Assembly (NCBI GenBank): GCA_030656215.1
Contig: JAUSOD010000070.1
Location: 248,001-312,000 of the forward strand
Direction: 5' to 3'
Origin: Azoarcus sp.
GTDB lineage: Bacteria > Pseudomonadota > Gammaproteobacteria > Burkholderiales > Rhodocyclaceae
DNA length: 64,000 nucleotides
This document shows positions 20,786 through 42,985 of this stretch, piece by piece. The first letter of the stretch is position 1, and each line of letters starts with the position of its first letter. A model generated the notes under the pieces. That model was given only the letters and a program-made list of their open reading frames with translations. It had not been told where the DNA came from and ran no database searches. The translations under genes and the position numbers were made by a program.

Positions 20786-20786
<1 letters not shown>
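20139..20786 (-). CDS. BON-domain lipoprotein (DolP/YraP-like)
   Basis: A 215-residue outer-membrane lipoprotein. Its signal peptide ends LLQGCFPV with the lipidated Cys near residue 27, and two BON domains follow (about 60-125 and 140-205, including NHINVTSYNRNVLLTGEVQN and ANHVKVVTEANVVFLMGLVT). E. coli DolP, with the same layout, sits in the same yraNOP order and maintains outer-membrane integrity with BAM and amidase regulation. The start MNTPHV overlaps the upstream SIS gene stop by one base (TGATG), so the two are translationally coupled. Confidence 0.87.
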
Positions 20787-21394
<608 letters not shown>

Positions 21395-21554
21395 TCATGC
21401 GTGGGGGCTTGAAGTCTAGCATGCAGCGTTGACTGCCTCGTTTCAACAATGGGCCTGAGCGTGGAGGTTTGCACGCGGCCTTACAAGGACTTACCGTCCG
21501 GCGCTGTCTGACAAGACGGCGGTACGCGGCGATTGCCCGGTTTTTTCCATCGCG

Positions 21555-24395: not shown

Positions 24396-24823
24396 GGGAA
24401 GTTCGCCAGGCAGTCGCTGCATGCCTTCGGGTATGTGGAGGAAAGTCCGGGCCCCGCAGAGCAGGATGCCGGCTAACGGCCGGGCGTCGTGAGGCGACGG
24501 AAAGTGCAACAGAAAGCAAACCGCCGATGGCCTTCGCAAGAGGGATCAGGTAAGGGTGAAACGGTGCTCCGTGACGCGCAAGCGTGATGGGGGTCGGGGT
24601 GCAAACCTCGGCGGGTAAGAGCCCACCGCAGGACTGGTAACAGGACTGGCACGGCAAACCCCATCCGGGGCAAGGCCAAATAGGGGAGTAATGGCGTGGC
24701 TCGCGTCGCTCCCGGGTAGGCTGCTAGAGCTTCACGGTAACGTGTCGCCCAGAGGAATGACTGCCCGATGATCCGGTTTGCGCCGGGTCGTTCGACAGAA
24801 CCCGGCTTATCGGCGAACTTCCC
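24396..24823 (+). ncRNA. rnpB: RNase P RNA, bacterial class A
   Basis: The catalytic RNA of RNase P, which matures tRNA 5' ends. The terminal stem P1 is visible as GGAAGTTCGCC at the 5' end and GGCGAACTTCC at the 3' end. Between them lie universally conserved elements: GAGGAAAGTCCGGGC near the start, GGGTGAAACGGTG and TAAGAGCCCACCGC in the middle, and GAGGAATGACTGCC near the end. Its length of about 428 bases is on the long side for class A, with an elongated P-stem area. Boundaries are inferred from the P1 pairing and could be off by a few bases. Confidence 0.95.
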
Positions 24824-24960
24824 AACTCCGATTTCAAATGTGGCCGCAAGCTACCGGCGTCCGGTAGGCCCATGCGGCTTGAGGCGCGCCAGTGGGTGCT
24901 CTGCGCACCCCGGCGCACCCCTGTTCCCCACTTCGCCCCACTCTTGGCGTGAACCGATCC

Positions 24961-25034: not shown

Positions 25035-25046
25035 TGACTTAAGTCA
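25035..25046. promoter_or_regulatory. 12-bp palindrome upstream of the mraZ promoter
   Basis: TGACTTAAGTCA is a perfect 12-bp palindrome 34 bases before the mraZ -35 box, nested in a wider CTTTG...CAAAG inverted repeat. It is AT-rich and could be an activator or repressor site for the dcw cluster. No family can be named. Confidence 0.4.
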
Positions 25047-25079
25047 TTGTGTCACAAAGAGTTTCCCCTTTTCGTCGGC

Positions 25080-25108
25080 TTGACCGGGTGTGCCCTTTAC
25101 TCTACAGT
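25080..25108 (+). promoter_or_regulatory. mraZ (dcw cluster) promoter
   Basis: TTGACC (five of six) and TACAGT (four of six) are 17 bases apart, a good sigma-70 arrangement. It lies about 70 bases upstream of mraZ, with the first MraZ repeat overlapping the -10. This is the expected site of the main dcw promoter, Pmra in other bacteria. Confidence 0.65.
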
Positions 25109-25140
25109 GGGAATAAGTGGTGAAAAGTGGTGAAAAGTGT
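25106..25140 (+). promoter_or_regulatory. MraZ operator: four direct repeats at 10-bp spacing
   Basis: AGTGG, AGTGG, AGTGG and AGTGT occur at exact 10-base intervals (AGTGGgaataAGTGGtgaaa and onward). Known MraZ operators are direct repeats of TGGG/GTGG-like boxes separated by five bases, bound by the MraZ oligomer to repress its own operon. The first copy overlaps the -10 hexamer, consistent with autorepression. This is one of the clearest regulatory signals in the window. Confidence 0.8.
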
Positions 25141-25179
25141 CATTTCGATGCTTTTCCCGAACAGTCCAGGGGGGGGTCG

Positions 25180-25623
25180 ATGTTCCAGGGAGCCGCAGCG
25201 CTCAGTCTCGATGCGAAGGGTCGCCTTGCGATTCCTGCCCGGCATCGTGATGCGCTTGCTATTGAGAATGGGCAGGTGGTTATCACCGCCCATCCGGAAG
25301 GCTGCCTGCTCGTCTACCCCGTTCCGGCCTGGACTCCGATCCGGGACCAGGTGCTCAGCGCGCCCAGCTTCGACCCCCGGTCCGCGCTGCTCAAGCGCCT
25401 GTTGGTCGGCTTTGCTCAGGATGAGGCGCTCGACAGCGCCGGTCGGGTGCTGATCAATCCTGCCCTGCGCCAGTTCGCCAAGCTCGAGAAGCAGGTCTGG
25501 CTCGTGGGGCAGGGGCAGCACTTCGAACTGTGGTCGGATGCCGGCTGGCAGAAGCAGCTGGAGGCGATGATGACGCTGGATGGTAGTAGCCTCCCCGCGG
25601 GTTTTGAGAGCCTCGCCCTGTGA
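25180..25623 (+). CDS. mraZ: Transcriptional regulator MraZ
   Basis: A 147-residue AbrB-fold DNA-binding protein that represses the dcw operon in E. coli. Two SpoVT/AbrB-like repeats are visible: [26 protein letters not shown] and [30 protein letters not shown]. The DAKGR and DSAGR loops contain the conserved DxxGR used for DNA contact. The start was set at MFQGAA, the normal family start; the track ORF reads upstream through the operator repeats. Its stop overlaps the rsmH start as GTGA, opening the long coupled series of the dcw cluster. Confidence 0.97.
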
Positions 25624-26558
25624 GCGCGCTTTCGTCGCACATCACCGTGCTGCTGCGCGAGGCAGTGGACGCGTTGTCGATCCGTCCCGACGGCATTTAC
25701 GTGGACGGAACTTTTGGGCGCGGCGGACACAGCCGGGCAATCCTTGCGCGGCTCAACGAAGATGGTCGCCTGATCGCGTTTGACCGCGATCCGGTCGCGA
25801 TCGAGGCTGGCGCAGCGCTCGATGATGCCCGCCTGACACTGGTGCATGCACCTTTCAGCGATCTGGAAGAAGAGCTGCAGCGCCTCGGCATCGAACAGCT
25901 CGACGGTGTGCTGCTCGATCTCGGGGTGTCGTCGCCCCAACTCGACGACGGTGCGCGAGGCATGAGTTTTCGCTTCGATGCGCCGCTCGACATGCGTATG
26001 GATACGAGCCGCGGCCAGACCGTCGCAGCGTGGCTGGCGGATGCGTCCGTCGCTCAAATCACGGAGGTTATCAAGGGCTATGGAGAAGAACGGTTTGCTT
26101 ATGCGATTGCAAAGGCGATTGCAGCTGCTAGGGCAGGGGGGCCTGTCGCGACCACTGGACAACTTGCCGCGATCGTGGAAAAAACGGTCCGCACACGCGA
26201 GCCGGGGCAGCATCCGGCGACGCGCAGTTTCCAGGCTCTACGGATTTTCATCAATCAGGAGCTTGAAGAGCTGACGCAGGTTCTGCCTGTGTGCGCGTCC
26301 CGGCTGCGGGCCGGAGGGCGGCTGGTGGTGATCAGCTTTCATTCGCTTGAGGACCGCATCGTCAAGCGTTTCATGCGTGACGAGTCGCGACCGCCGCAGC
26401 TGCCCGCTCGTTTGCCGGTGCGTGCTGCCGACCTTCCCTCACCCCGCCTGCGCTTGATCGGTAAGGCGCTACGCCCGGGCAGTGACGAGGTGGCTGCCAA
26501 CCCGCGTTCGCGCAGCGCGGTCATGCGCGTCGCCGAGCGCTCCGAGGGGGAGGCATGA
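25620..26558 (+). CDS. rsmH: 16S rRNA (cytosine(1402)-N4)-methyltransferase
   Basis: A 312-residue SAM methyltransferase (MraW) acting on the base of C1402, the same nucleotide whose ribose is methylated by RsmI, also in this window. Motifs are [55 protein letters not shown] and [17 protein letters not shown]. It starts with GTG inside the mraZ stop and ends in an ATGA overlap with ftsL. The C-terminal [16 protein letters not shown] is typical. Confidence 0.97.
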
Positions 26559-26821
26559 TGCGGCTCGATGCGCTGCTCGTTGCGCTGGCCGTGGCCAGTG
26601 CCCTCGGTGTGGTTGCCGCCCAGCATCAGGCGCGCAAGCTGTTCTCGGCGCTTGAGCGCGAGCAGACCCGTACCCACGGCCTTGAGGTCGAGTGGGGACA
26701 GCTGCAGCTCGAGCAAAGCACCTGGGCTGCGCATGGCCGAGTCGAGAAGCTGGCACGAGACAAACTCGGATTGCGCCCGCCTGCCCAAGGGCAGATGGTG
26801 GTACTGGAGCCGCAACCTTGA
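26555..26821 (+). CDS. ftsL: Cell division protein FtsL
   Basis: An 88-residue bitopic divisome protein that works with FtsB and FtsQ and helps activate FtsWI. A short cytoplasmic head is followed by one transmembrane helix ([22 protein letters not shown], about residues 4-25) and a periplasmic coiled-coil segment ([23 protein letters not shown]). Identification rests on size, topology and position between rsmH and ftsI, as FtsL is poorly conserved. The double ATG at the start leaves one codon of ambiguity. FtsB is not in this cluster. Confidence 0.93.
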
Positions 26822-28581
26822 AAAAACAGCGCACCGTCACCTTCAATCACAATCCGCTGCTCAAGCGCGAATTGCCCGCATGGCGCTCGCGCTTCGTGCT
26901 GATGGCGCTGCTCGGTTGCTCGGCCGCGCTGGCGGGACGTGCGCTCTACCTGCAGGGTATCCACAATGAATTCCTCCAGGCCAAGGGTGAGTCGCGTTAC
27001 GCCCGGGTGCTCGAGGTGCCTGCAACCCGCGGACGGATCACCGATCGTTATGGCGACATGCTGGCGGTGAGCACGCCGGTGCGCTCAGTGTGGGCGATTC
27101 CCGGTGATGCCCAGCTTGAGCCGGGTGATGCCCGCCAGTTGGCCAAGTTGCTCGAGATGAACGCGGTCGAACTCGATGCCAAGCTCGCTGGTGGGCGTGA
27201 TTTCGTGTACCTGAAGCGCCAGCTCGCGCCCGATGTGGCGGACCGGATCAGTGCGCTCAAATTGCCCGGTATTCATCAACAGCGTGAATACCGTCGCTTT
27301 TATCCGGGCGGCGAGGTCATGTCGCATGTGCTGGGCTTCACCAGTATTGAGGACCGTGGTCAGGAAGGCATCGAACTTGCGTTCGAGAAATTGCTTGCCG
27401 GGCAGCCCGGGTCACGGAGGGTGATCAAGGACCGCCGCGGGCAAGTGGTGGAAGACGTGGAGTCCATCCGCCAGCCACGTGACGGGCAGGATGTCGTGCT
27501 GGCGATGGACGGCAAGGTGCAGTATCTGGCCTATTCGGCCCTGCGCGAGGCGATGCAGACACACCGCGCCAAGGCGGGCGCGGTGGTGGTACTCGACGTG
27601 CGCACCGGAGAGGTGCTGGCGCTGGCCAACGCACCAACTTTCAATCCCAACAACCGTGCCAATCTGACCGGCGCCCAGTTGCGCAACCGGGTGTTTACCG
27701 ACACCTTCGAGCCGGGTTCGGTCATGAAACCCTTCATTGCCGGACTCGCGCTGGAGCGCGGCAAGTTCAAGGCCACGTCCACGATTGACACCAGTCCAGG
27801 ACGGATGACGATCGGCGGTGCCTCGATCGGAGATGCGCACCGCCACGGGGTGTTGACCGTTGCCGAAATCATTCAGAAGTCCTCGAACATCGGCACAGTG
27901 AAGATGGCGCAGCAGTTCACGCCGGACGAAATGTGGCGGCTCTTCGACCAGCTGGGCTTTGGCTCACCGTTGAACATGGGTTTTCCCGGTGAGGCAGGCG
28001 GGCGACTGCGTCCAGCCAAGAGCTGGCGCCCGATCGAGCAGGCGACCATGTCCTATGGTCATGGCATATCTGTCAGCCTGATCCAGATGGCACGCGCCTA
28101 TCTTGCCTTTGCTCGCGACGGAGACCTGCCGTCCCTGTCCCTTACTCGTGTCGATGCGGCATCGGTGGCTGGACGCAGGGTGTTTTCGCCTGAGGTTGCG
28201 CGTGAGCTCCGGACAATGCTGGAGATGGCTGCGGGCCCCGGCGGCACCGCACCCAAGGCCCAGGTTCCCGGCTACCGGGTGGCGGGCAAGACCGGTACGG
28301 CACACAAGCTCGAAGGCGGGCGCTATGCGAACAAGTATGTATCGTCGTTTGTCGGTTTTGCACCGGTCTCCAATCCGCGCCTGGTCGTAGCGGTGATGAT
28401 CGACGAACCGTCGGCAGGCCAGCATTACGGCGGTGCAGTCGCCGCGCCGGTGTTCGCGAGGATCGTCGAGGGTTCGTTGCGGGCACTCGGTGTTGCACCC
28501 GATGCACCGCTGACCCCCTTGCAGTTCGCGCGCAAGCCAGGTGACGCGGCGGTGGTCGTTGCGGTCGAGGAGAGCATGTGA
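26818..28581 (+). CDS. ftsI: Peptidoglycan D,D-transpeptidase FtsI (PBP3)
   Basis: A 587-residue class B penicillin-binding protein that cross-links septal peptidoglycan. One N-terminal membrane anchor (FVLMALLGCSAALAGRALYL, about 25-45), a pedestal domain, and the transpeptidase domain with the three motifs SVMK (GSVMKPFIAG), SSN (KSSNIGTVKM) and KTG (AGKTGTAHK) are visible. No ATG is suitable. I place the start at a TTG whose last two bases plus A form the ftsL stop (TTGA), with GGAG eight bases upstream; the resulting N-terminus [18 protein letters not shown] is as expected. The track's Met start lies inside ftsL. Confidence 0.94.
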   Translation: MKKQRTVTFNHNPLLKRELPAWRSRFVLMALLGCSAALAGRALYLQGIHNEFLQAKGESRYARVLEVPATRGRITDRYGDMLAVSTPVRSVWAIPGDAQLEPGDARQLAKLLEMNAVELDAKLAGGRDFVYLKRQLAPDVADRISALKLPGIHQQREYRRFYPGGEVMSHVLGFTSIEDRGQEGIELAFEKLLAGQPGSRRVIKDRRGQVVEDVESIRQPRDGQDVVLAMDGKVQYLAYSALREAMQTHRAKAGAVVVLDVRTGEVLALANAPTFNPNNRANLTGAQLRNRVFTDTFEPGSVMKPFIAGLALERGKFKATSTIDTSPGRMTIGGASIGDAHRHGVLTVAEIIQKSSNIGTVKMAQQFTPDEMWRLFDQLGFGSPLNMGFPGEAGGRLRPAKSWRPIEQATMSYGHGISVSLIQMARAYLAFARDGDLPSLSLTRVDAASVAGRRVFSPEVARELRTMLEMAAGPGGTAPKAQVPGYRVAGKTGTAHKLEGGRYANKYVSSFVGFAPVSNPRLVVAVMIDEPSAGQHYGGAVAAPVFARIVEGSLRALGVAPDAPLTPLQFARKPGDAAVVVAVEESM

Positions 28582-30077
28582 GCGTCGCTGCGCTAGCCAT
28601 CCTCGAACAACTGCGTGTTGCCGGCGTGGTGCCAGGAGGGATCACCGCCGATTCGCGCAAGATTGGTCCTGGCGACCTGTTTGCCGCGTGGCCCGGTTAC
28701 GCCACCGATGGTCGGCGTTACATCGAAGCGGCCATTGCGCAGGGCGCCGCGGCGGTGCTTTACGAAGGTAGCGACGGCTATCGCGCGGAGGGACTGGCGC
28801 GACCCGCAATTGCGGTAGACCACCTGCGTGACCTGGCCGGACATCTTGCCCACGAGATCTATCAGCGGCCGTCTGAGAGCCTGTGGCTTGCCGGAGTGAC
28901 CGGCACCAATGGCAAGACCACCGTCAGCCAGTGGCTGGCACGTGCGCTTGAGGACCTCGGGTGCCGTTGCGGTATCGTCGGCACGCTTGGTTGCGGCTTT
29001 CCCGAGCAGCTGGCGGCGAGCAACAACACCACGCCGGATGCCCTCGAACTGCATCGGGCGCTGGCCGAATTTCGGGCCGCCGGGGCTGCTGCAGTCGCCA
29101 TGGAGGTGTCCTCCATCGGTCTCGACCAGGGTCGGGTCAATGGCGCCTCCATGGACATCGCAATTTTCACCAACCTGACCCGGGATCACCTCGACTATCA
29201 CGGCACCATGGAGACCTACGCGGCGGCGAAGTCGCGCATCTTCTCGCTGCCCGGTTTACGTGCCGCCATCATCAACCTGGATGATGCGTTTGGCCTGGCG
29301 CAGGCACGTCGCCTGGTCGGCGAGGGCCTGCAGGTGATCGGCTATACCTGCGTGGCCTCCAATGCCGATGCCGTGCCGGGTGCCCAGGTGCTGGTTGCCG
29401 ACCACATCCGCACATCGGCATCCGGTCTGCAATTCACCGTGATCTGGGAACGCAGCCAGGCGGAGTTGCAGGTGCGCATGGTTGCCCCCTTCAATGTATC
29501 GAACCTGCTCGCCGTGATTGCGGCATTGCTCGCGCGTGGCGTGGCGCTGGACGAGGTGCTGCATGTCGCCGCCCGCCTGACGCCGCCGGAAGGCCGGATG
29601 CAACTGGTCGGCGGCGTGGGCGAGCCGCTGGTCGTGATCGACTATGCGCATTCTCCCGATGCCCTGGCGAAGGTGCTCGCGGCGGTGCGGACCACAGTCC
29701 GCACGCGCGGCGGGCGCCTGGTTTGTGTGTTCGGCTGCGGTGGTGATCGTGATCCGGGCAAGCGGCCGTTGATGGGTGAAGTAGTGCGCGAACTCGCCGA
29801 CCGCGTGGTGGTGACCAGCGACAACCCGCGCAGTGAAGACCCGCTGACGATCATCGAGGCCGTAGCCGCCGGTGCCGGACCGGCTGCGGAGTGCATTGTC
29901 GACCGGGCGCAGGCCATCCGCATCGCGATCGGCGAGGCCGCTGCCGATGACGTGATCGTGCTGGCCGGAAAGGGGCATGAGCCCTATCAGGAAGTGCTCG
30001 GGCAACGTTTGCCGTTTTCGGATCTTGAGCAGGCGCGAGCCGCCTTGCTCGAATGGAACAGGAGTGCCGGCGCATGA
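28578..30077 (+). CDS. murE: UDP-MurNAc-tripeptide ligase MurE
   Basis: A 499-residue Mur ligase adding meso-diaminopimelate to UDP-MurNAc-L-Ala-D-Glu. Motifs are GITADSRKIGPGDLFAAWPG, the ATP loop [32 protein letters not shown] (with carbamylated-Lys region) and VVTSDNPRSEDP, where DNPR is the diaminopimelate-recognition motif. That implies A1-gamma-type, DAP-containing peptidoglycan. GTG start overlaps the ftsI stop. The end overlaps murF by four bases. Confidence 0.97.
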   Translation: MSVAALAILEQLRVAGVVPGGITADSRKIGPGDLFAAWPGYATDGRRYIEAAIAQGAAAVLYEGSDGYRAEGLARPAIAVDHLRDLAGHLAHEIYQRPSESLWLAGVTGTNGKTTVSQWLARALEDLGCRCGIVGTLGCGFPEQLAASNNTTPDALELHRALAEFRAAGAAAVAMEVSSIGLDQGRVNGASMDIAIFTNLTRDHLDYHGTMETYAAAKSRIFSLPGLRAAIINLDDAFGLAQARRLVGEGLQVIGYTCVASNADAVPGAQVLVADHIRTSASGLQFTVIWERSQAELQVRMVAPFNVSNLLAVIAALLARGVALDEVLHVAARLTPPEGRMQLVGGVGEPLVVIDYAHSPDALAKVLAAVRTTVRTRGGRLVCVFGCGGDRDPGKRPLMGEVVRELADRVVVTSDNPRSEDPLTIIEAVAAGAGPAAECIVDRAQAIRIAIGEAAADDVIVLAGKGHEPYQEVLGQRLPFSDLEQARAALLEWNRSAGA

Positions 30078-31486
30078 TGACTTTGCTCGACGCCGTTCGT
30101 GCGCTGGCTGCCCAAGGGGCACGCGCCCTGGGCACTGCGCGCTTCGAATCGGTCGGCACCGATAGCCGTGCCATCCGCCAGGGGCAATTGTTTGTTGCGC
30201 TGCGCGGCGAGCACTTCGACGGGCATGACTTCGTAGAGCTTGCTGTTGCCGCGGGTGCCGCGGCCGCGCTGGTGGATGCGCGCTGGGCTGAGTCACATGC
30301 CGGCGTGTCCTTGCCGCTGGTGGTGGTCGATGACACGCGTGTTGCGCTCGGCGCGCTCGCAGCGGCGTGGCGCGCCGGCTTCGATCTGCCCGTGCTCGGG
30401 GTGACGGGCAGCAACGGCAAGACCACGGTGAAGGAAATGTGCGCCGGGATCCTGCGCGCCCAGGCGGCGCTTCACGGGGTGGGCGGGGAGTCGGTGCTGG
30501 CGACACGCGGCAATCTGAACAACGACATCGGCTTGCCGCTGACCCTGCTCGAACTGCGCGACCATCACCGTGCGGCGGTGGTCGAGATGGGCATGAACCA
30601 TCCGGGCGAGATCGGTTACCTGACCCGCCTGGCGCGGCCGACGGTGGCCATCGTGAACAACGCACAGCGCGCCCACCTGCAGGGCATGGGCACGCTGACC
30701 GAGGTTGCGCGCGAAAAGGGGGCGATCTACGAGGGGCTGCGCTCGGATGGCGTTGCAGTGATCAATAGTGACGATCCGCACGCCGCTTACTGGCGCGATC
30801 TCAATGCGGGTCGCCGGATTGTGACATTCGGTATCGACCAGCCTGCAGACGTTCGCGGCCGGTGTACCCTGCACGGCCTCGGATCGCGGCTCGATCTTGA
30901 TACTCCGCAGGGGCGGGTTGAAGTCGTGCTGCAGGTTCCGGGGCTTCACAATGCACGCAATGCCGTGGGCGCGGCGGCGGCTTGTCTCGGTGCGGGTGCC
31001 TCGCTTGAAGCGGTGGCCATCGGGCTGGGCGAATTTGCCGGAACCCGTGGGCGACTGCAGCGTCGATCTGGCCCGAACGGGTCGGTGATCCTCGACGACA
31101 GCTACAACGCCAACCCCGATTCGGTGCGGGCGGGTATCGATGTGCTCGCCCTGACGCCAGGGCACACCTTTCTCGTGCTTGGCGACATGGGCGAGGTCGG
31201 CGAGACCAGTGCGCAGGTGCATGACGAGATCGGCGGATATGCCAAGAGCAAGGGCGTCGACGGGCTGTTTGCCCTTGGTGAGTCGAGCGCGGTGGCCGCG
31301 CGCAACTTCGGTGAGGGCGGTCAGCATTTTGATCGGGTGGAGTCGCTGGTGGCGGCGCTTGCCCCCCGGCTCGATGCCGACGCCGTCGTGCTGGTGAAGG
31401 GCTCACGCTTCATGCGCATGGAACGTGTGGCGAATGCCCTTGCCGCACTGCACAATACCGCCCCTCGCACCGAAACAGGCTCGTAA
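30074..31486 (+). CDS. murF: UDP-MurNAc-tripeptide:D-Ala-D-Ala ligase MurF
   Basis: A 470-residue Mur ligase adding D-Ala-D-Ala to complete UDP-MurNAc-pentapeptide. It shows [24 protein letters not shown] loop [35 protein letters not shown] and [20 protein letters not shown]. The start ATG overlaps the murE stop (ATGA) and has GGAG nine bases upstream; a second in-frame ATG follows at once. The track start lies seven codons upstream inside murE. Confidence 0.97.
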
Positions 31487-31487
31487 C

Positions 31488-32576
31488 ATGCTCCTCGAAC
31501 TCGCCCTCTGGATCAGCCAGGACATCCGCGGTTTCAACGTCTTCGGCTACATCACGCTGCGCACGGTGCTGGCGGCACTGACCGCACTGGTGATCTCGCT
31601 GATTGCGGGGCCGGGCGTCATCCGCTGGCTGGCGGCAAAGAAAATCGGCCAGGCGGTACGCGATGATGGCCCCAAGTCGCACCTGACCAAGACCGGCACC
31701 CCGACCATGGGCGGCGCGCTGATCCTGATCTCGATCGGGATCACGGTGATGTTGTGGGGCGACCTGTCCAATGGATATATATGGGTGACGCTGTTCGTCA
31801 CCCTGGGGTTCGGTGCCGTGGGTTGGGTGGACGACTGGCGCAAGGTGGTGCACCGCGACCCGAAGGGGCTGGCCAGCCGCTGGAAGTATCTGTGGACCTC
31901 GCTCATTGCCCTGGCCGCGGCGATCTTTCTCGGCATCACGGCGAGCACCCCGGCTGAAACCGAGCTGATCGTGCCCTTCTTCAAGGCCGTGACCTACCCG
32001 CTCGGCATCTTCGGCTTTATCGCCCTGACCTACTTCGTGATCAATGGCACCAGTCATGCGGTGAACCTGACTGACGGCCTCGATGGCCTGGCGATCATGC
32101 CCACGGTGATGGTTGCCGGTGCGTTGGCGATCTTCGCCTATGTGGCAGGGCATGCCGGCTTCTCCAAGTACCTCGGCGTGCCCTATGTCGCAGGGGCGGG
32201 CGAGCTCGCCATCTTCTGCGGCGCAATCTGCGGGGCCGGCCTCGGCTTTCTGTGGTTCAACGCTTACCCGGCCGAAGTGTTCATGGGTGACGTCGGCGCG
32301 CTGGCGCTAGGCGCCGCACTCGGGACGATCGCGGTGATCGTGCGTCAGGAGATCGTGCTCTTCATCATGGGCGGCCTGTTCGTGGCTGAAACCCTGTCGG
32401 TGATGATCCAGGTGCTGTATTTCAAGGCGTCCGGCGGCAAGCGCATCTTCCGCATGGCGCCGCTGCACCACCACTATGAACTTGGTGGCTGGAAGGAAAC
32501 ACAGGTGGTGGTTCGCTTCTGGATCATCACCATCATGCTGGTCCTGTTCGGTCTTTCCACGCTGAAACTCAGATGA
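31488..32576 (+). CDS. mraY: Phospho-MurNAc-pentapeptide transferase MraY
   Basis: A 362-residue polytopic membrane enzyme (about ten helices) transferring phospho-MurNAc-pentapeptide to undecaprenyl phosphate, forming lipid I. The first signature [15 protein letters not shown], the aspartate motif [15 protein letters not shown], the nucleophile region [14 protein letters not shown] and the histidine motif [14 protein letters not shown] are all intact. The start MLLELAL follows murF by one base. It ends in an ATGA overlap with murD. Confidence 0.98.
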
Positions 32577-33973
32577 GTACGTTCGCGGGCAAACACGTTC
32601 TGGTACTCGGGCTCGGTGAATCGGGCCTGGCGATGGCACGCTGGTGTGCCTGCCAGGGGGCCCGGCTGCGCGTCGCCGACAGCCGGGAATGTCCGCCGGG
32701 CGTCGATGCGCTGCGTGAGGACGCGCCGCTGGCCGAGATCGTTACCGGCCGTTTCGGTGATGAAGTGCTCGACGGCATCGACCTGGTGGCGGTCAGCCCG
32801 GGGCTCGACCCGCGTGTCGGCGTGATTGCCGAGGCGCGCCGGCGGCAGTTGCCGGTCACCGGCGAAATGAGCCTGCTCGCCGCAGCGCTGAACGACCTCG
32901 ATGTGCGCAGTCGCACCCGCATCCTGGCCATCACCGGCACCAACGGCAAGACCACCACCACTGCGCTGACGGCGGCGCTTGCCGCGTCGGTCGGGCTCGA
33001 TGCGGTGGCCGCGGGCAACATCAGCCCGGCCGCGCTCGACGTACTGATGGATCGCCTCGAACGCGGAGAGGATCTGCCCGAGTGCTGGGTGCTGGAGCTC
33101 TCGAGCTTTCAGATCGAAACCCTGCAGGGCCTCGATCCGGATGCGGCCACGGTGCTCAACGTCAGCGACGATCATCTCGATCGCTATGCCGACGTGCACG
33201 AGTACGCGGCGGTCAAGGCGCAGGTATTTCAGGGGCAGGGTGCCCTGATCCTCAATCGCGACGATGAACGCGTGCGTAAGATGGCGCTGCCGGGGCGGCC
33301 GACGATCTACTTTTCCACTGCGGCACCTGTGGGCGACAGCGACTACGGCCTGATCGAGCGTGGGGGCGAGTGCTGGCTGGCGCGGGGTGAGTCGGCGTTG
33401 CTGCCGTTGGCGGCGCTTCCGATCGCCGGCCGCCACAATGCCGCCAATGCGCTGGCGGCGCTGGCGCTGTGCGAAGCCGGCCTGGGCCTGTCGGCAGAAA
33501 CCCTGTTGCCTGGTCTGAAGACCTTCCGCGGTCTGCCGCACCGGGTCGAACTGGTGGCGGAGCGCACGGATGGCGTGCGCTACTACGATGATTCCAAGGG
33601 CACCAATGTCGGGGCCACCGTCGCCGCGCTGGACGGTCTTGGCGGCAAGGTTGTACTGATCGCGGGTGGCGACGGCAAGGGGCAGGATTTCGCGCCGCTT
33701 GCCGCGCCGCTTGCCCGTCATGCGCGCGCGTTGGTGCTGATCGGACGCGATGCCGCACGAATCGAGGCTGCGGCGGCCGGGGCCGGGGTGGCGATTGAAC
33801 ACGCGACCGACCTCGATCTCGCTGTCGAACAAGCCAACCGGCTGGCGCAGCCCGGCGACGCGGTACTGCTGTCGCCCGCGTGCGCAAGCCTCGACATGTT
33901 CCGCAACTATGCCCATCGAGCCGAGGTGTTCATCGCCGCGGTGCGTCGGCTGCCGGGAGTGAGCCCGCGATGA
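32573..33973 (+). CDS. murD: UDP-MurNAc-L-Ala:D-Glu ligase MurD
   Basis: A 466-residue Mur ligase adding D-glutamate to UDP-MurNAc-L-Ala. Motifs are [70 protein letters not shown], and [18 protein letters not shown]. Length is slightly above E. coli MurD (438) because of an insert around the N-terminal third. Both ends overlap neighbours by four bases, with mraY and ftsW. Confidence 0.97.
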
Positions 33974-35193
33974 AGCTCGGCGCCATTCTCCCCGGTTCGC
34001 GCACGAGCACCGGCAACCGCGCCAGCGAGCGGACTGTCAGCCGTCTGGTGCGCCCGTCGGCCCCTGCTCGCGAGCTCGATCTGCTGCTGATCTGGTCTGC
34101 GGTCGGTCTGCTGTTGATCGGGCTGGTGATGGTGTATTCGTCCTCGATCGCGATTGCCGAGGGCAGCCGCTTTACCGGTTACCAGTCGCACTACTTCCTG
34201 ATGCGGCATGCGGTCTTTCTCGCCGTGGGTATCGGCCTGGGGCTGATCGCGTTCCAGTTGCCGATGACCCAGTGGCAACGCCTCGCGCCGGCCTTGTTCG
34301 TCGCCGGCGTGGTGTTGCTGATCGTGGTGCTGATTCCCGGGGTGGGGCGTGAGGTCAACGGCGCACAGCGCTGGCTGTCGCTCGGACCGGTCAATCTTCA
34401 GCCGTCCGAACTGATGAAGATCTTCGCCGCGATCTATGCCGCCGACTACACGGTGCGCAAGCTCGATGCGATGGGCAGCTTCATGCGCGGCTTCCTGCCG
34501 ATGCTGGTGGTGATTGTATTCGTGGGTTTTCTGCTGCTGCGCGAGCCGGACTTTGGTGCCTTTGTGGTGATTACCACGATCGCGTTCGGCGTGCTCTTTC
34601 TCGGTGGGGTGAATATCCGCGTGTTTGCGCTGCTCGGCGTGTTTGCGCTGATCGGTTTCATGATCCTGATCTGGACCTCGCCCTATCGGCGCGAGCGCAT
34701 CTTCGGTTTCATGGACCCGTGGCAGGACGCTTTCGGCAAGGGCTACCAGCTGTCGCACGCATTGATCGCTTTCGGCCGCGGTGAATGGTTCGGGGTGGGG
34801 CTTGGTGGCAGCGTGGAGAAGCTCTTCTATCTGCCCGAAGCCCATACCGACTTCTTGCTCGCGGTGATTGCGGAGGAGCTCGGGTTTGTCGGCGTGATGG
34901 TGGTGGTGGCACTGTTTGCGGTGGTGGTGCAGCGTGCCTTCGTCATCGGCCGCGAGGCGATCAAGCTCGAGCGCTACTTTTCCGGGCTGGTGGCGCAGGG
35001 CATCGGGCTGTGGATCGGGGTGCAGTCCTTCATCAACATGGGCGTCAATATGGGCCTGCTGCCGACCAAGGGGCTGACCCTGCCCTTGATGAGTTTTGGT
35101 GGCTCGGGCATCGTCGCCAACTGCCTCGCGCTGGCGATCCTGCTGCGGGTGGACTGGGAAGTGCGCCAGATGAAGCGGGGGGGCGGTTCATGA
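33970..35193 (+). CDS. ftsW: Septal peptidoglycan glycosyltransferase FtsW (SEDS)
   Basis: A 407-residue SEDS polymerase with ten predicted helices, working with FtsI. Landmarks are [53 protein letters not shown], and [37 protein letters not shown]. The essential catalytic Asp region lies in the EAHTDF loop, which is conserved. MKLGAI was chosen because its ATG overlaps the murD stop; the track ORF begins 30 codons earlier in murD. A 35-residue cytoplasmic head precedes the first helix. Confidence 0.97.
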
Positions 35194-36260
35194 AAACCCT
35201 GCTGATGATGGCCGGTGGCACTGGCGGCCACATTTTTCCCGGCGTCGCGGTTGCGGAAGCCCTGCGGGCGAAGGGGTGGCGCATCGTGTGGATGGGCAAC
35301 CCGGACGGGATGGAAGCCCGGATCGTGCCCGAGCGCGGTTACGAAACCGCGTGGGTGCGCTTTGGCGCGCTGCGTGGCAAGGGCCTGATGCGCAAACTGT
35401 TGCTCCCGCTCAATCTGTTGTCCGGGTTCTGGCAGGCGCTGCGTGCCTTGCGCAAGGTCCGGCCGGATGTCGTGGTCGGCATGGGCGGGTATATCACCTT
35501 CCCTGGCGGCATGATGTCGGTCTTGCTCGGGCGGCCGCTGGTATTGCACGAGCAGAATTCCGTTGCTGGTCTCGCCAATCGGGTGCTGGCGGTGGTGGCC
35601 GACCGGGTGCTGTCCGGCTTCCCCCATGTGCTGAAGAAGGCCGGCTGGGTCGGCAATCCGGTGCGCGCCGAGATCGCGACGGTCGCACTGCCCGCGGAGC
35701 GCTTCGCAGGCCGCAGCGGCCCCTTCCGTTTGCTGGTGGTGGGTGGCAGCCTGGGTGCGTCCATCCTTAACGATACGGTGCCGCAGGCGCTGGCCAGGAT
35801 TGCGCCCGAGCAGCGTCCGCTGGTTGTGCATCAGGCCGGCGCGAAGCAGATCGACGCCCTGCGCGCAGCCTATCAAAGTGCCGGGGTCGAGGGTGATCTG
35901 CGCCCCTTCATCGACGACATGGCAGCCGAATACGCAGCCGCCGATCTGGTGATCTGCCGTGCCGGCGCGCTGACTGTGGCCGAGCTGGCTGCCGTCGGGG
36001 TGGCCAGCCTGCTGGTGCCTTTCCCGCACGCGGTGGACGACCATCAGACCGGCAATGCCCGTTTTCTGGCCGACCACGGCGCCGCCTGGCTGCTGCCGCA
36101 AACCGAACTCAACGCCGAACGACTGGCCGGCATTCTCGCCAGTCTCGATCGTCCCCGCCTGTTGCAGATGGCCGATCACGCCCGGGCGCTGGCCAAGCCG
36201 CGCGCAACCGAGGCCGTGGTCCGCATCTGTGAAGAACTCGCGGGCAAGGGCAAGTCATGA
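35190..36260 (+). CDS. murG: Lipid II synthase MurG
   Basis: A 356-residue GT28-family glycosyltransferase adding GlcNAc to lipid I at the inner face of the membrane. The N-terminal glycine loop [49 protein letters not shown], and the C-terminal UDP-binding [30 protein letters not shown] segment are intact. It is joined by ATGA overlaps to ftsW and murC. The far longer track ORF extends into ftsW in another frame and is not the gene start. Confidence 0.98.
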
Positions 36261-37657
36261 AACACAAGGTCAAAAACATCCATTTTGTCGGTATCGGCGG
36301 TTCGGGCATGAGCGGCATCGCCGAGGTCCTGGTGAACCTGGGCTTTTGCGTCAGCGGCTCGGATCTGGGCGATAGTGCCGCCACCCGCCGGCTCAAGGCG
36401 ATGGGCGCACGCGTGGTGCTCGGTCACGATGCCGCCAATGTTGAAGTCGCCGATGTGCTGGTCACTTCCACTGCGGTCAAGAACGACAATCCTGAAGTGA
36501 TCGCCGCCCGTGCGCGCCACATTCCGGTGGTGCCCAGGGCGCAGATGCTGGCCGAGCTGATGCGGCTCAAGAGCGGGATCGCGATCGCCGGCACCCACGG
36601 CAAGACCACCACCACCTCCCTGGTGGCGAGCATCCTCGCCGAGGGCGCGATGGACCCGACCTTCGTCATCGGCGGCCGACTCAATGCGGCCGGCGCCAAT
36701 GCGCGGCTGGGCAAGGGTGACTTCCTGGTGGCCGAGGCCGACGAATCCGACGCGTCCTTCCTGATGCTCAGCCCGGTGATCTCGGTGGTGACCAACATCG
36801 ATGCCGACCATATGGATACCTATGGTCACGACTTTGCCCGCCTCAAGCAGGCCTTTGTCGATTTCCTCCAGCGCCTGCCTTTCTATGGCGTGGCGGTGCT
36901 GTGCGAGGACGACCCCCACGTGCGCTCGATCATGCCGCTGGTGTCGAAGCAGGTGGTGCGTTACGGCCTGTCGGAGACGGCCAACATCCGCGCCGAGAAC
37001 ATCCGTGCCGAGGGCGGGCGGATGCTGTTCGATGCGGTACGCGTCAATGGCAGCATTTCGCGGCTGCCGATCGCGCTGAACCTGCCGGGGGTGCACAACG
37101 TGCTCAACGCGCTGGCTGCGATCGCGGTCGCGACCGAAGTTCAGGTCGCCGACGAAGCCATCATCAAGGCGCTGGCCGAGTTCAGCGGGGTCGGACGGCG
37201 CTTTCAACGCTATGGCGAAGTGGCGCTGGCGGCCGGCGGCAGCTTCACTCTGGTCGACGATTATGGCCATCACCCGGTGGAGATGGAGGCGACGCTGGCT
37301 GCGGCGCGTGGCGCCTTCCCCGGGCGGCGTCTGGTGCTGGCCTTCCAGCCGCATCGATACACCCGTACCCGCGACTGCTTCGAAGATTTCATCAAGGTCC
37401 TGTCCACCGTCGATGCGCTGCTGCTGGCCGAGGTCTATGCCGCGGGCGAGGCGCCGGTGGTGGCCGCCGACGGGCGTGCCTTGTCGCGTGCGCTGAGGGT
37501 GGCGGGCAAGGTGGAGCCGGTGTTCGTCGAGGACATCGCGCAGATGCCGCAGGCCATTTCCGACGCGGCCCGTGACGGCGATGTGGTGATCACCATGGGT
37601 GCCGGCAGCATCGGTACGGTTCCAGGCAAAGTCGCGAACAGTGAGGAGCAGGCGTGA
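36257..37657 (+). CDS. murC: UDP-MurNAc:L-alanine ligase MurC
   Basis: A 466-residue Mur ligase adding L-alanine, the first amino acid of the stem peptide. Motifs are [68 protein letters not shown] and [14 protein letters not shown]. Note the Mpl/MurC difference at EADESDASF against EADEYDTAF in this same window. Stops overlap murG and ddl by four bases. murB, which usually follows murC in E. coli, is not here. Confidence 0.98.
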
Positions 37658-38568
37658 AGCAGCGGTTCGGAAAAGTTGCGGTTCTGTTCGGTGGTGCATC
37701 CGCCGAGCGCGAGGTGTCGCTGATGTCGGGCGCCGCGGTGCTAGCTGCCTTGCAGGGCGCCGGTGTCGACGCCCATCCCTTCGACCCGGCGCAGCGCGAT
37801 CTGCACGTTCTCAAGGAGGAGAGCTTTGATCGCGTGTTCATCGCACTCCATGGCCGCGGCGGGGAAGACGGCACGGTGCAGGGCGCACTCGAATTGATGG
37901 GCATCCCTTATACCGGCAGCGGGGTGATGGCTTCCGCGCTGTCGATGGACAAGTGGCGGACCAAGATGGTGTGGCAGGCCTGCGGCTTGCCGACCCCGCG
38001 CTATGCGATCCTCGACGCCGACACCGACTGGCAGGCAGTGGTGGATGATCTCGGCTTGCCGATTTTCGTCAAGCCGGTGCATGAAGGCTCGAGCATGGGG
38101 GCAACCAAGGTAACTGCCGCCGATCAGTTGCAGGCGGCGTGGGCGCTGGCCGCCCGATACGACGACCTGGTGATTGCCGAGGAGTTTGTAGCGGGCCAGG
38201 AGCTCACCGCGCCTTTCCTTGAGGACCGGGTGTTGCCGCTGGTCCGGATTGTTGCGCCCGATGGCAACTACGACTACCAGCACAAGTACTTCACCGACGA
38301 TACCCGTTACGACTGCCCCTGCGGCCTGCCCGACGCCCAGGAGCAGACGCTGCAGGACTTGGTGATGAAAAGCGCCCGGGTGCTCGGTTGCCGCGGCTGG
38401 GGTCGGGCGGATCTGATTCTGACCGATGACGGTCGGCCTTATCTGCTTGAGATGAATACCTCGCCCGGCATGACCGGGCATTCGCTGGTGCCGATGTCGG
38501 CCCGAATCGCCGGCATGTCGTTCGAGGCCTTGTGTCTGAAACTCCTCGATGGAGCCCGCCTTGGCTGA
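37654..38568 (+). CDS. ddl: D-alanine-D-alanine ligase
   Basis: A 304-residue ATP-grasp ligase making D-Ala-D-Ala for MurF. Motifs are [58 protein letters not shown] and [20 protein letters not shown]. It is the DdlB type by length and location between murC and ftsQ. GTG start overlaps the murC stop; the 3' end overlaps ftsQ by 20 bases. Confidence 0.97.
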
Positions 38569-39409
38569 AGCCCGCGTGCGCGCCACACCTGCTTCCACTC
38601 GCCAGACGGGTGGTGGCAGTGCGCGCGTGCGCGAGCGGCAGGGGCTGTGGAACCGGCCGGCGCTGCTCGACCTGATCTCCGACCTGCTGATGCTGTTCGC
38701 CGCGGTCGGACTGGGCTGGGCCCTGGTGACCTGGTTCCTGTCCCGCCCGCTGTTTCCCCTGCGCGAGTTGGTGGTGCTGACGCCGCCCGCGCGGGTGACC
38801 GAGGCCCAGCTTGAATATGTGTCACGTACCGCGATCCAGGGCAATTTCTTCACTATCGAACTGGAGAGCGTTCGTGCCCACTTCGAGAAGCTGCCCTGGG
38901 TGCGTCGCGCGGAGGTGCGTCGGCGCTGGCCCGACGGCATCGAGTTGCGTCTGGAAGAACATCAGGCGGTGGCCTACTGGTCCGCAAACGACAGCGGCGA
39001 TACCCGGCTGGTCAATCGTCAGGGCGAGGTGTTTACCGCATCGAGCGATGCCGCCATGCCCGCCTTCTCCGGCCCGCAGGGGTCGGCCGCGCTGCTGCTG
39101 GCGCGTCATGAAACCTATTCGAAACTCCTGCAGCCGATGGGGGTGACCCTGATCGGGCTGATGTTGTCAGCGCGTGAGGCCTGGCAGCTCAAGCTCGACA
39201 ATGGCCTGGTCATCGTTCTCGGGCGCGAGCAGGAGCGGGCACCGCTCGAGGCCAGGCTGACGCGCTTCGTCACCGCCTGGCCGTCGGTTGTACAGAACAT
39301 TGGATTACAGGTCTCGGTGGCGGATCTCCGCTATCCGGGCGGATTTGCATTGACCCCCGTGGACGCAGTGCCGGTTGAGCGGAACCCGACAGCGAAAGGC
39401 AAGAAATGA
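38549..39409 (+). CDS. ftsQ: Cell division protein FtsQ
   Basis: A 286-residue bitopic divisome protein. A basic cytoplasmic region (about 1-35) is followed by a transmembrane helix ([20 protein letters not shown], about 45-65), a POTRA domain ([20 protein letters not shown] to [13 protein letters not shown]) and the FtsQ beta domain ([12 protein letters not shown] onward). FtsQ bridges FtsB-FtsL to the ring. The start at MEPALA overlaps ddl by 20 bases; a later TTG that overlaps the ddl stop would shorten it by four residues. The C-terminus overlaps ftsA by four bases. Confidence 0.94.
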
Positions 39410-40635
39410 GCAAGGAACACAAGGAATTGATCGTCGGTCTGGATATCGGCACCTCGAAAATCACCTGCCTGGTGGCCGAGGTGCGTCCCGACGGACGTCT
39501 CAATGTCGTCGGGCTGGGTACCCAGCCCACCAATGGTCTCAAGCGTGGTGTGGTGGTCAACATCGAGGCCACGGTCGACGCGATCTCCCGGGTCATCCAG
39601 GAGGTTGAGCTGATGGCCGAGTGCAAGATCCATGATCTGTACACCGGTATCGCCGGCAGTCACATCAAGAGCTTCAACTCCAACGGCATGGTGGCGATCA
39701 AGGAGAAGGAGGTCACCCCGATGGATGTCGAGCGGGTGATCGAGGTTGCCCGCGCGATGCCGATTCCGGCTGAGCAGCAGATCCTGCACATCCTGACCCA
39801 GGAATTCATCATCGACGGCCAGGGTGGGGTGCGCGAGCCGATCGGCATGAGCGGGGTCAAGCTCGAGGTCAAGGTGCATATCGTCACCGGCGCGGTGTCG
39901 GCGGCACAGAACGTGATCAAGTGCGTGCGCCGCTGCGGACTTGAGGTGATGGACCTGATCCTGCAACCGCTGGCGTCAAGCTACGCGGTGCTGACCGAGG
40001 ACGAGAAGGAGCTCGGGGTGTGCATGGTCGATATCGGTGGCGGCACCACCGACATCGCGGTGTTTACCCAGGGCGCCATTCGTCATACCGCGGTCATCCC
40101 GGTTGCGGGCGATCAGATTACCAACGACATCGCGATGGCCTTGCGTACGCCGACCGCCGAGGCCGAGGACATCAAGATCCGTCATGGGGTGGCGATGCAC
40201 ACCCTGGCCGATCCGGAAGAAATGATCCAGGTGCCCGGGGTGGGCGACCGCCCGCCGCGGCCCTTGTCGCGCCAGCGTCTGGCCGATGTGATCGAGCCGC
40301 GGGTGTCCGAGCTGTTCGAACTGGTTCAGGCCGAACTGCGCCGTAGCGGCTACGAAGAGTTGTTGTCGTCCGGCATCGTGCTCACCGGTGGTTCGGCGGT
40401 CATGCAGGGCATGGAGGAGCTGGGCGAGGACGTGTTCCATATGCCGGTGCGGGTCGGTGCGCCGCAGTACGACGGTGGGCTGGCCGATGTGGTGTGCCAG
40501 CCGCGGTATGCGGCGGCGATGGGGCTGGTTATCGAGGGTGCAGCACAGCGCAGACGCGGTCTGCAGGCACGGGATACGCGCAGCGTGAAACAGTTTTTCG
40601 GACGTATGAAGACGTGGTTTGAGCGGAATTTCTGA
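39406..40635 (+). CDS. ftsA: Cell division protein FtsA
   Basis: A 409-residue actin-like ATPase that tethers FtsZ to the membrane. Phosphate and nucleotide loops appear as LIVGLDIGTSKITCLVAEV, GVCMVDIGGGTTDIAVFTQG and GIVLTGGSAVMQGMEEL. The FtsA-specific 1C domain lies at about residues 85-165. The C-terminal amphipathic membrane helix VKQFFGRMKTWFERNF is present. Separated from ftsZ by 143 bases with its own strong ribosome site on the ftsZ side. Confidence 0.98.
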   Translation: MSKEHKELIVGLDIGTSKITCLVAEVRPDGRLNVVGLGTQPTNGLKRGVVVNIEATVDAISRVIQEVELMAECKIHDLYTGIAGSHIKSFNSNGMVAIKEKEVTPMDVERVIEVARAMPIPAEQQILHILTQEFIIDGQGGVREPIGMSGVKLEVKVHIVTGAVSAAQNVIKCVRRCGLEVMDLILQPLASSYAVLTEDEKELGVCMVDIGGGTTDIAVFTQGAIRHTAVIPVAGDQITNDIAMALRTPTAEAEDIKIRHGVAMHTLADPEEMIQVPGVGDRPPRPLSRQRLADVIEPRVSELFELVQAELRRSGYEELLSSGIVLTGGSAVMQGMEELGEDVFHMPVRVGAPQYDGGLADVVCQPRYAAAMGLVIEGAAQRRRGLQARDTRSVKQFFGRMKTWFERNF

Positions 40636-40689
40636 CCGGCTGCAGGGGCAGCAGGTCATTTTGAATGAGGGTTCGATCCGATACCCATA

Positions 40690-40720
40690 TTTAGTATTAC
40701 ACTTCGCGGTTATTACTAAA
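40690..40720 (+). promoter_or_regulatory. AT-rich inverted repeat in the ftsA-ftsZ gap, possible ftsZ promoter region
   Basis: TTTAGTA and TACTAAA form a 7-bp inverted repeat 17 bases apart in the AT-rich part of the 143-base gap upstream of ftsZ. The gap is the one break in the coupled dcw series, so a separate ftsZ promoter is expected. AGGAGGCGAGG ahead of ftsZ is a strong ribosome site. I could not settle a -35/-10 pair. Confidence 0.4.
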
Positions 40721-40778
40721 TGCAGTTCGGTCGGGCGTTCTTGGCGCAGCAGGGCCGTTTATTCAGGAGGCGAGGCAA

Positions 40779-41918
40779 ATGTTTGAAATCATTGAGAAGG
40801 AACCGACCGGAACCGTGATCAAGGTGGTTGGCGTGGGCGGTGCCGGTGGCAACGCAGTCGATCACATGATTCGTGAGGGTGTGCAGGGGGTGCAGTTCAT
40901 CGCCGCCAATACCGACGCGCAGGCGCTGTCGCGCTGCCTGGCATCGACCAAGATCCAGCTCGGCATTACCGGCCTCGGTGCCGGCTCCAAGCCGGAAGCG
41001 GGCCGTGCCGCGGCGCAGGAGTCGCGTGAGGCGATCGCTGCCGCGCTTGACGGCGCGCACATGTGCTTCATCACCGGCGGCATGGGCGGTGGCACCGGTA
41101 CCGGTGCAGCACCGGTGGTGGCCGAGATCGCCAAGGAAATGGGCATACTCTGCGTGGCAGTGGTGACCAAGCCCTTCGACTTCGAGAACCGTATCCGGGT
41201 GGCCGAGAGTGGTGTCGAGGAACTGACCCGCCATGTCGATTCGCTGATCGTGGTGCTCAACGACAAGCTGCTCGACGTGTTCGGCGACGACGCCGGCTTC
41301 GAGGAGTGCTTCCGCTCGGCCGACAACGTGTTGCGTTCGGCAGTGGGTGGCATCGCTGAGATCATCAACGTCCCGGGCCTGGTCAACGTTGACTTCCAGG
41401 ACGTGCGTACCGCGATGGCCGAGATGGGCCGCGCGATGATGGGCTCTGCCGAAGCGTCCGGCATGGATCGTGCGCGTATCGCTGCCGAGCAGGCCGCCGT
41501 ATCGCCGCTGCTCGAAGGCACCGAACTGTCGGGCGCGCGCTGCGTGCTGATCAACATCACCGCCAGCAAGTCGCTGAAGATGTCCGAAGTGCGTGATGCG
41601 GTGAAAACCGTTCAGGCCTTTGCCGCTGCCGAAGCCTTCGTCAAGTACGGCACCGTGTTCGAAGAAAGCATGGAAGACCGCATCCGCATCACCGTGGTCG
41701 CGACCGGTCTCGGTTCGCCGCGTGCTGCCGCGCGTCAGCCGGTGATGCAGGTGGTGCAGGGGACGGGTACCTACGGTCCGATGGGTGGTGTCGACATGAA
41801 TAACCTGGACGTGCCGGCAGTGATGCGCAGCGGTCGCCGCACCACCGTCGATGCGATGAGCAACAACGGTGTCGGCACCTACGACATTCCAGCCTTCCTG
41901 CGCCGCCAGGCTGACTGA
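40779..41918 (+). CDS. ftsZ: Cell division protein FtsZ
   Basis: A 379-residue tubulin homologue that forms the cytokinetic ring. GTPase signature FITGGMGGGTGTGAAPVVAE; KVVGVGGAGGNAVDHMI at the N-terminus; T7 loop NVDFQDVRTAM. The conserved C-terminal peptide TYDIPAFLRRQAD binds FtsA and ZipA-type partners. The linker between core and tail is short. AGGAGGCGAGG precedes the start. The gene is followed by a strong hairpin terminator before lpxC. Confidence 0.99.
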   Translation: MFEIIEKEPTGTVIKVVGVGGAGGNAVDHMIREGVQGVQFIAANTDAQALSRCLASTKIQLGITGLGAGSKPEAGRAAAQESREAIAAALDGAHMCFITGGMGGGTGTGAAPVVAEIAKEMGILCVAVVTKPFDFENRIRVAESGVEELTRHVDSLIVVLNDKLLDVFGDDAGFEECFRSADNVLRSAVGGIAEIINVPGLVNVDFQDVRTAMAEMGRAMMGSAEASGMDRARIAAEQAAVSPLLEGTELSGARCVLINITASKSLKMSEVRDAVKTVQAFAAAEAFVKYGTVFEESMEDRIRITVVATGLGSPRAAARQPVMQVVQGTGTYGPMGGVDMNNLDVPAVMRSGRRTTVDAMSNNGVGTYDIPAFLRRQAD

Positions 41919-41989: not shown

Positions 41990-42061
41990 TCGGCGTTTTG
42001 TGCACTGCAATCCGTGCTTTGACGCATGCTAAACTTCAGTCCTGAAACGGGAACGAAACAC

Positions 42062-42985
42062 ATGATCAAGCAACGAACCCTGAAAGCGATCGTCAAGGCA
42101 ACCGGCGTCGGCCTGCATGGCGGGCGCAAGGTCAATCTGGTGCTGCGTCCGGCGGCGCCCGATACTGGCATCGTATTTCATCGCGTGGATCTCGATCCGC
42201 CGCTCGATCTGCCTGCCGACCCCTATGCCGTGTGCGACACCCGCATGTGTTCGGGGCTGGAGAAGGGCGGAGAGAAGGTCGGCACCGTCGAACACCTGAT
42301 GTCAGCACTTGCCGGACTCGGTATCGATAATCTGCACGTCGATGTCGATGCGCCCGAAATCCCCATTCTCGACGGCAGTTCGGGCCCGTTCGTGTTCCTG
42401 CTGCAGTCGGTTGGCATCGAGGAGCAGTCCGCGCCAAAGCGGTTCATGCGGGTGAAGAAGGCGGTCGAGTATCGCGAGGGCGACAAATGGGTACGGCTCG
42501 AGCCTTACGACGGGTTCAAGCTGCAGTTCTCCATCGTGTTCAACCATCCCGCAATCGATAGCACCTCGACCTCGGTCACGGTGGATTTTGCCGAGCATTC
42601 CTATATTCGTGATGTGGCCCGCGCGCGCACCTTCGGCTTCATGCAGGAGGTCGAATACATGCGTGCCAACGGGCTGGCACTCGGTGGCAGCCTGGATAAC
42701 GCAATCGTGATGGACGAGTACCGCGTGCTCAATACGGACGGCTTGCGCTACGTCGACGAGTTCGTCAAGCACAAGGTCCTCGACGCAATCGGCGATCTCT
42801 ACCTGTGTGGCCATCCGCTGCTCGCCGCGTATTCGGCGCACAAGGCAGGGCATGCGCTCAATAACCAGGTGCTGCGTGTGCTGCTGGAAGACGAGTCGGC
42901 CTGGGAGATCGTGACCTTCGACAAGGTCGCCACCACGCCGGCAGCGGTCATCCACCAGTTTGCCAATCCTGTGTTGGCGACCTGA
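42062..42985 (+). CDS. lpxC: UDP-3-O-acyl-N-acetylglucosamine deacetylase
   Basis: A 307-residue zinc deacetylase catalysing the committed step of lipid A synthesis. The N-terminal [42 protein letters not shown] (zinc His and acyl-site), [13 protein letters not shown], and C-terminal [31 protein letters not shown] (zinc His-x3-Asp) are intact. MIKQRT start was chosen; the track start lies 12 codons upstream. The dcw-lpxC neighbourhood is common in proteobacteria. The gram-negative, lipid-A-bearing nature of the host follows from it. Confidence 0.98.

Follow-up and report, generated by a model that had tools for sequence, protein, structure and literature searches.

The mraZ promoter and its phased boxes

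The window analysed here, the whole 64,000-nucleotide stretch of contig JAUSOD010000070.1 from Azoarcus sp., contains a complete dcw cluster that is headed by mraZ, runs through to ftsZ and is followed by lpxC (Table 1). Its closest relatives are found in Azoarcus/Parazoarcus and Thauera. The mraZ gene is intact: its product scores 102 bits against the Pfam MraZ family and 125.9 bits against the NCBIfam equivalog TIGR00242 (cut-off 98.35), and carries both of the DxxxR loops of MraZ, here DAKGR and DSAGR. A scan around the mraZ start found a single promoter, of the sigma-70 type (TTGACC-17-TACAGT, 25080-25108). Directly upstream of this promoter, on the same strand, lies an RNase P RNA of bacterial class A (24398-24825), and no terminator-like site was found between this RNA and the mraZ promoter.

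Table 1. Coordinates of the features at the mraZ locus (positions are those of the window)
Feature	Sequence or size	Position	Strand	Remarks
Second conserved element, TAAGTC(N)TTGT	TAAGTCATTGT	25040..25050	+	40 bp ahead of the -35 hexamer; candidate activator site
-35 hexamer	TTGACC	25080..25085	+	
-10 hexamer	TACAGT	25103..25108	+	17-bp spacer from the -35 hexamer
MraZ box 1	AGTGG	25106..25110	+	AGT = last three bases of the -10 hexamer
MraZ box 2	AGTGG	25116..25120	+	around the expected transcription start
MraZ box 3	AGTGG	25126..25130	+	
MraZ box 4	AGTGT	25136..25140	+	
Ribosome-binding site, purine-rich	AGGGGGGGG	25168..25176	+	read from the sequence
mraZ	147 aa	25180..25623	+	ATG start backed by homologues aligning from residue 1
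rsmH, ftsL, ftsI, murE, murF, mraY, murD, ftsW, murG, murC, ddlB, ftsQ, ftsA, ftsZ		25620..41918	+	
lpxC		42026-42985		after ftsZ

The segment from 25106 to 25140 reads AGTGGGAATAAGTGGTGAAAAGTGGTGAAAAGTGT, that is, three copies of AGTGG followed by AGTGT, with box starts at 25106, 25116, 25126 and 25136 and steps of exactly 10 bp. The four phased repeats reported for this segment in the initial annotation were confirmed letter by letter, and the overlap with the -10 hexamer described there is correct, box 1 supplying the AGT of TACAGT. Boxes 2 to 4 lie downstream of the -10, around and past the expected transcription start, and 40 bp separate the end of the array from the mraZ ATG. The description of the boxes as lying on one helix face holds approximately: steps of 10 bp against about 10.5 bp per turn accumulate a drift of only about 1.5 bp over three steps, so that the boxes face nearly, although not exactly, the same side.

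The array is unique in both the window and the genome. A search with the four-box pattern at up to three mismatches returned three matches in the window, where shuffled sequences lead one to expect 0.02; the array is the sole perfect match, and one of the two others arises from it by a shift of one box. Across the 5.08-Mb genome, four RGTGK units at 10-bp steps occur once and the reversed control pattern not at all. Candidates for further MraZ targets were rejected: the looser three-box matches elsewhere in the genome (L001, L004) overlap long open frames and two-box matches occur at about the rate of the control (4 vs 2), and we therefore claim no wider MraZ regulon.

Conservation of the array and the number of boxes

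The comparison drew on 272 mraZ upstreams, all distinct. Of these, 172 belong to the family and 57 to other families of the order (Burkholderiales under the usual nomenclature); a further 42 come from the rest of the class or phylum, and one is that of E. coli K-12. At least three GTG cores at a 10-bp step are present in 214 of the 272 (0.4 in shuffled sequence), and runs of at least three at steps of 7-9 or 11-13 bp number at most one for each step. The relation to the promoter recurs as well. Box 1 is joined to a TAnnGT hexamer in 185 of the 214 arrays and a TTGAC-like hexamer stands 27 bp ahead of the first GTG in 166 of them, so the fusion of promoter and operator seen here is the rule. 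In relatives the GTG cores keep their 10-bp spacing and the intervening letters differ; this conservation of the array partly reflects shared ancestry.

The bases flanking the cores are also constrained; in family arrays scoring at least 4, box 3 has its following G in 99% of cases, and about 90% of box 1 copies keep the preceding A. Box 4 may weigh less than the other three, since it is the least constrained beyond its GTG core in the family arrays. Its GTG-T form is the commonest form of the fourth box (44% of family four-box arrays) and is kept in the Azoarcus/Thauera relatives. An alternation of boxes with a 20-bp period (GTGGG in boxes 1 and 3, GTGGA in box 2) is seen in family arrays, was unclear across the order and was dropped as a candidate feature. 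An apparent loss of the array in three Accumulibacter members was likewise discarded, the array being present with one degenerate box. The operators upstream of mraZ in Denitromonas (L032, L034, L041, L042) alternate AGTGGG with AGTGCAC, and the GTGCAC form is palindromic.

Four boxes had initially been set against a more usual three, a contrast that the survey reverses. When one degenerate inner box is allowed, 63 family members have three boxes, 91 have four and 11 have more (n = 172), and the corresponding numbers for the order outside the family are 18, 32 and 4 (n = 57); four is the commonest count in both groups and not rarer than three among relatives. Counted by strict GTG cores, at least four boxes are present in 32 of the 57 order members outside the family, and all five genus members searched have four. 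The mraZ upstreams L040, L114 and L191 carry arrays of five GTG boxes in phase.

The four boxes could nevertheless be read as a special adaptation of this species for tighter and more cooperative repression. All four GTG cores are indeed intact, and box number tracks lineage instead of being scattered: a tree of 81 needs 7 changes, compared with 32 in shuffles (rows L007 and L026 are misplaced in this tree, apparently because the second gene was read in the wrong frame, and the change count alone was used). Yet the predominance of four boxes in the family and the order, their presence throughout the genus members searched, and the retention in E. coli of a degenerate fourth box in phase with three others make such an adaptation improbable. 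The same conclusion is reached from Burkholderia cenocepacia, which belongs to the same order as this bacterium. A four-repeat site has been published for that species (PMC7761207). Four boxes are what is normal for this order, a correction to the picture derived from E. coli, and box counts across many lineages are useful for relating the geometry of the MraZ ring to the length of its operator.

A second conserved element upstream of the promoter

With at most one mismatch, TAAGTC(N)TTGT is found in 158 of 172 family, 44 of 57 order and 5 of 42 other mraZ upstreams, shuffles giving 3.5 per 272 upstreams; at this threshold it is absent upstream of E. coli mraZ. At most of its positions the base hardly varies across mraZ upstreams, and most relatives have an A-rich stretch at +21 to +24 of the element, in place of which this window has GTTT. 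The element starts 37-42 bp before the -35 hexamer in 173 cases and 50-52 bp before it in 16, with 0 cases at 43-49 bp, the two positions (about 40 and about 51 bp) being one helical turn apart. A class-wide search added ten gammaproteobacterial families in which the element, with its promoter layout, precedes mraZ. A regulon for TAAGTCNTTGT was considered and rejected: exact matches elsewhere in genomes are no more frequent than reversed controls, most of them fall within long open frames and the promoter layout is missing, and no other genuine TAAGTCATTGT sites were found in the genome. A second exact TAAGTCCTTGT occurs at 21483-21493 on the minus strand, and the gene that begins 104 bp downstream of it (20786-21379) was judged by eye to be a diaA/gmhA-like SIS-domain gene. 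This copy is likewise without the mraZ-type promoter layout and may be due to chance. A literature search for the element strings gave nothing relevant.

The fixed helical phase of the element is the pattern that would be expected from contact between a putative activator and RNA polymerase. We tentatively propose, at a little short of an even chance, that TAAGTC(N)TTGT is an undescribed site for a dcw-dedicated activator or for some other DNA-binding protein that partners RNA polymerase. Such a site, widespread among the Burkholderiales and extending to several other families of the Gammaproteobacteria, would act from either one of two positions one helical turn apart. If it is a regulator's site, it would point to an unknown input into the expression of division and cell-wall genes across a large bacterial group. 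The element merits separate follow-up, whereas the array itself is one more clear instance of an operator already known.

The element also raises the question of whether MraZ is an activator or a minor modulator at this locus, with the main control of the promoter coming from TAAGTCNTTGT. In favor of such an arrangement, the element is conserved as strongly as the boxes and keeps its helical distance from the -35 hexamer. However, an array overlapping the -10 and the start site fits occlusion, and the MraZ roles published for E. coli and M. genitalium, as related in PMC8475190 and PMC7761207, are repression. Furthermore, in B. cenocepacia a 161-bp upstream fragment is as active as a 289-bp one (PMC7761207), which may count against the element as an activator if the shorter fragment lacks it. 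Taken together, these observations make it very unlikely that MraZ plays the lesser or the opposite role here.

The MraZ operator and its known counterparts

We are highly confident that the array is the autoregulatory operator of MraZ, the repressor of the dcw cluster, and as such a new example of a known operator type. At least three direct GTG-core repeats with a 10-bp period mark such operators, and here there are four perfect copies; they lie at the mraZ promoter that heads the dcw cluster, they keep their register ahead of orthologous mraZ genes (at least three phased cores in the 214 upstreams mentioned above), and the cognate MraZ has its two DxxxR loops. Gene identity, position, motif and conservation all bear out the initial assignment of an MraZ operator ahead of mraZ and the dcw cluster, as do published experiments in which B. 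cenocepacia MraZ bound such repeats (PMC7761207); binding to such repeats in E. coli and Mollicutes is reported by way of citing papers (PMC7761207, PMC5282649, PMC8475190). That the array is a direct repeat due to chance or low complexity, without regulatory role, as the double occurrence of GTGGTGAAAA and the identical unit AAGTGGTGAA in boxes 2 and 3 might suggest, has a negligible probability, being refuted by the GTG cores that relatives hold at 10-bp steps between varying letters and by the window and genome counts, including a chance expectation of 0.02 for even the loose pattern in the window.

By analogy with other species, an MraZ oligomer would bind at this operator by docking four neighboring subunits on the four GTG boxes, each about one DNA turn from the next. 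The bound ring would extend over the -10 and the transcription start to about base 25 of the transcript (about -12 to +25), and RNA polymerase would be unable to open the promoter so covered; a fall in the level of MraZ would allow transcription of mraZ and of the genes that follow it. Solved MraZ structures include 1n0e and recent entries such as 9qlr (the structure table is silent on their DNA content). A multi-subunit ring would act by avidity, and the tight cooperative autoregulation suggested in the initial annotation is, beyond such avidity, a candidate property only. Control of the entire dcw cluster from the array is plausible in this organism, because B. cenocepacia transcribes its dcw cluster from mraZ to ftsZ as a single transcript, for which no active internal promoter was found (PMC7761207).

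Like PmraBc of B. cenocepacia, the array consists of four GTG repeats with a 10-bp period at the dcw promoter; the B. cenocepacia repeats are of seven bases each, with three-base spacers, and overlap the dcw start site, and MraZ shifts a fragment carrying this four-repeat site (PMC7761207). The two systems differ in that the B. cenocepacia repeats are described as lying downstream of the -10, whereas here box 1 is part of it, and in that MraZ binding was demonstrated there by fragment shift, whereas the operator here is known from sequence. The array also resembles the E. coli Pmra operator (mraZ1p; L115), described by Eraso et al. (2014) as cited in PMC8475190 and PMC7761207, in having phased GTGG boxes near the -10 and the mraZ promoter start. 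The E. coli array (CAGTGGGAAA TTGTGGGGCA AAGTGGGAAT AAGGGGTGAG) has three intact boxes followed in phase by a degenerate fourth, AAGGGG, compared with four intact boxes here, and the TAAGTC element present in this window was not found upstream of E. coli mraZ. In Mollicutes the core site is given as (AAAGTGKN3)3 (Fisunov et al., 2016, as cited in PMC5282649), to which MraZ is reported to bind as an octamer (PMC5282649). In M. genitalium MraZ represses the cluster, the loss of MraZ raises expression of the rest of the cluster, and the only such motif sits in the mraZ promoter (PMC8475190). With its core AAAGTG[T/G], its 10-bp period and a GTG-T variant as in box 4, the Mollicutes site as so described is like the array of this window, even though the Mollicutes are wall-less, their core site is described as three units and the M. 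genitalium cluster is one of four genes.
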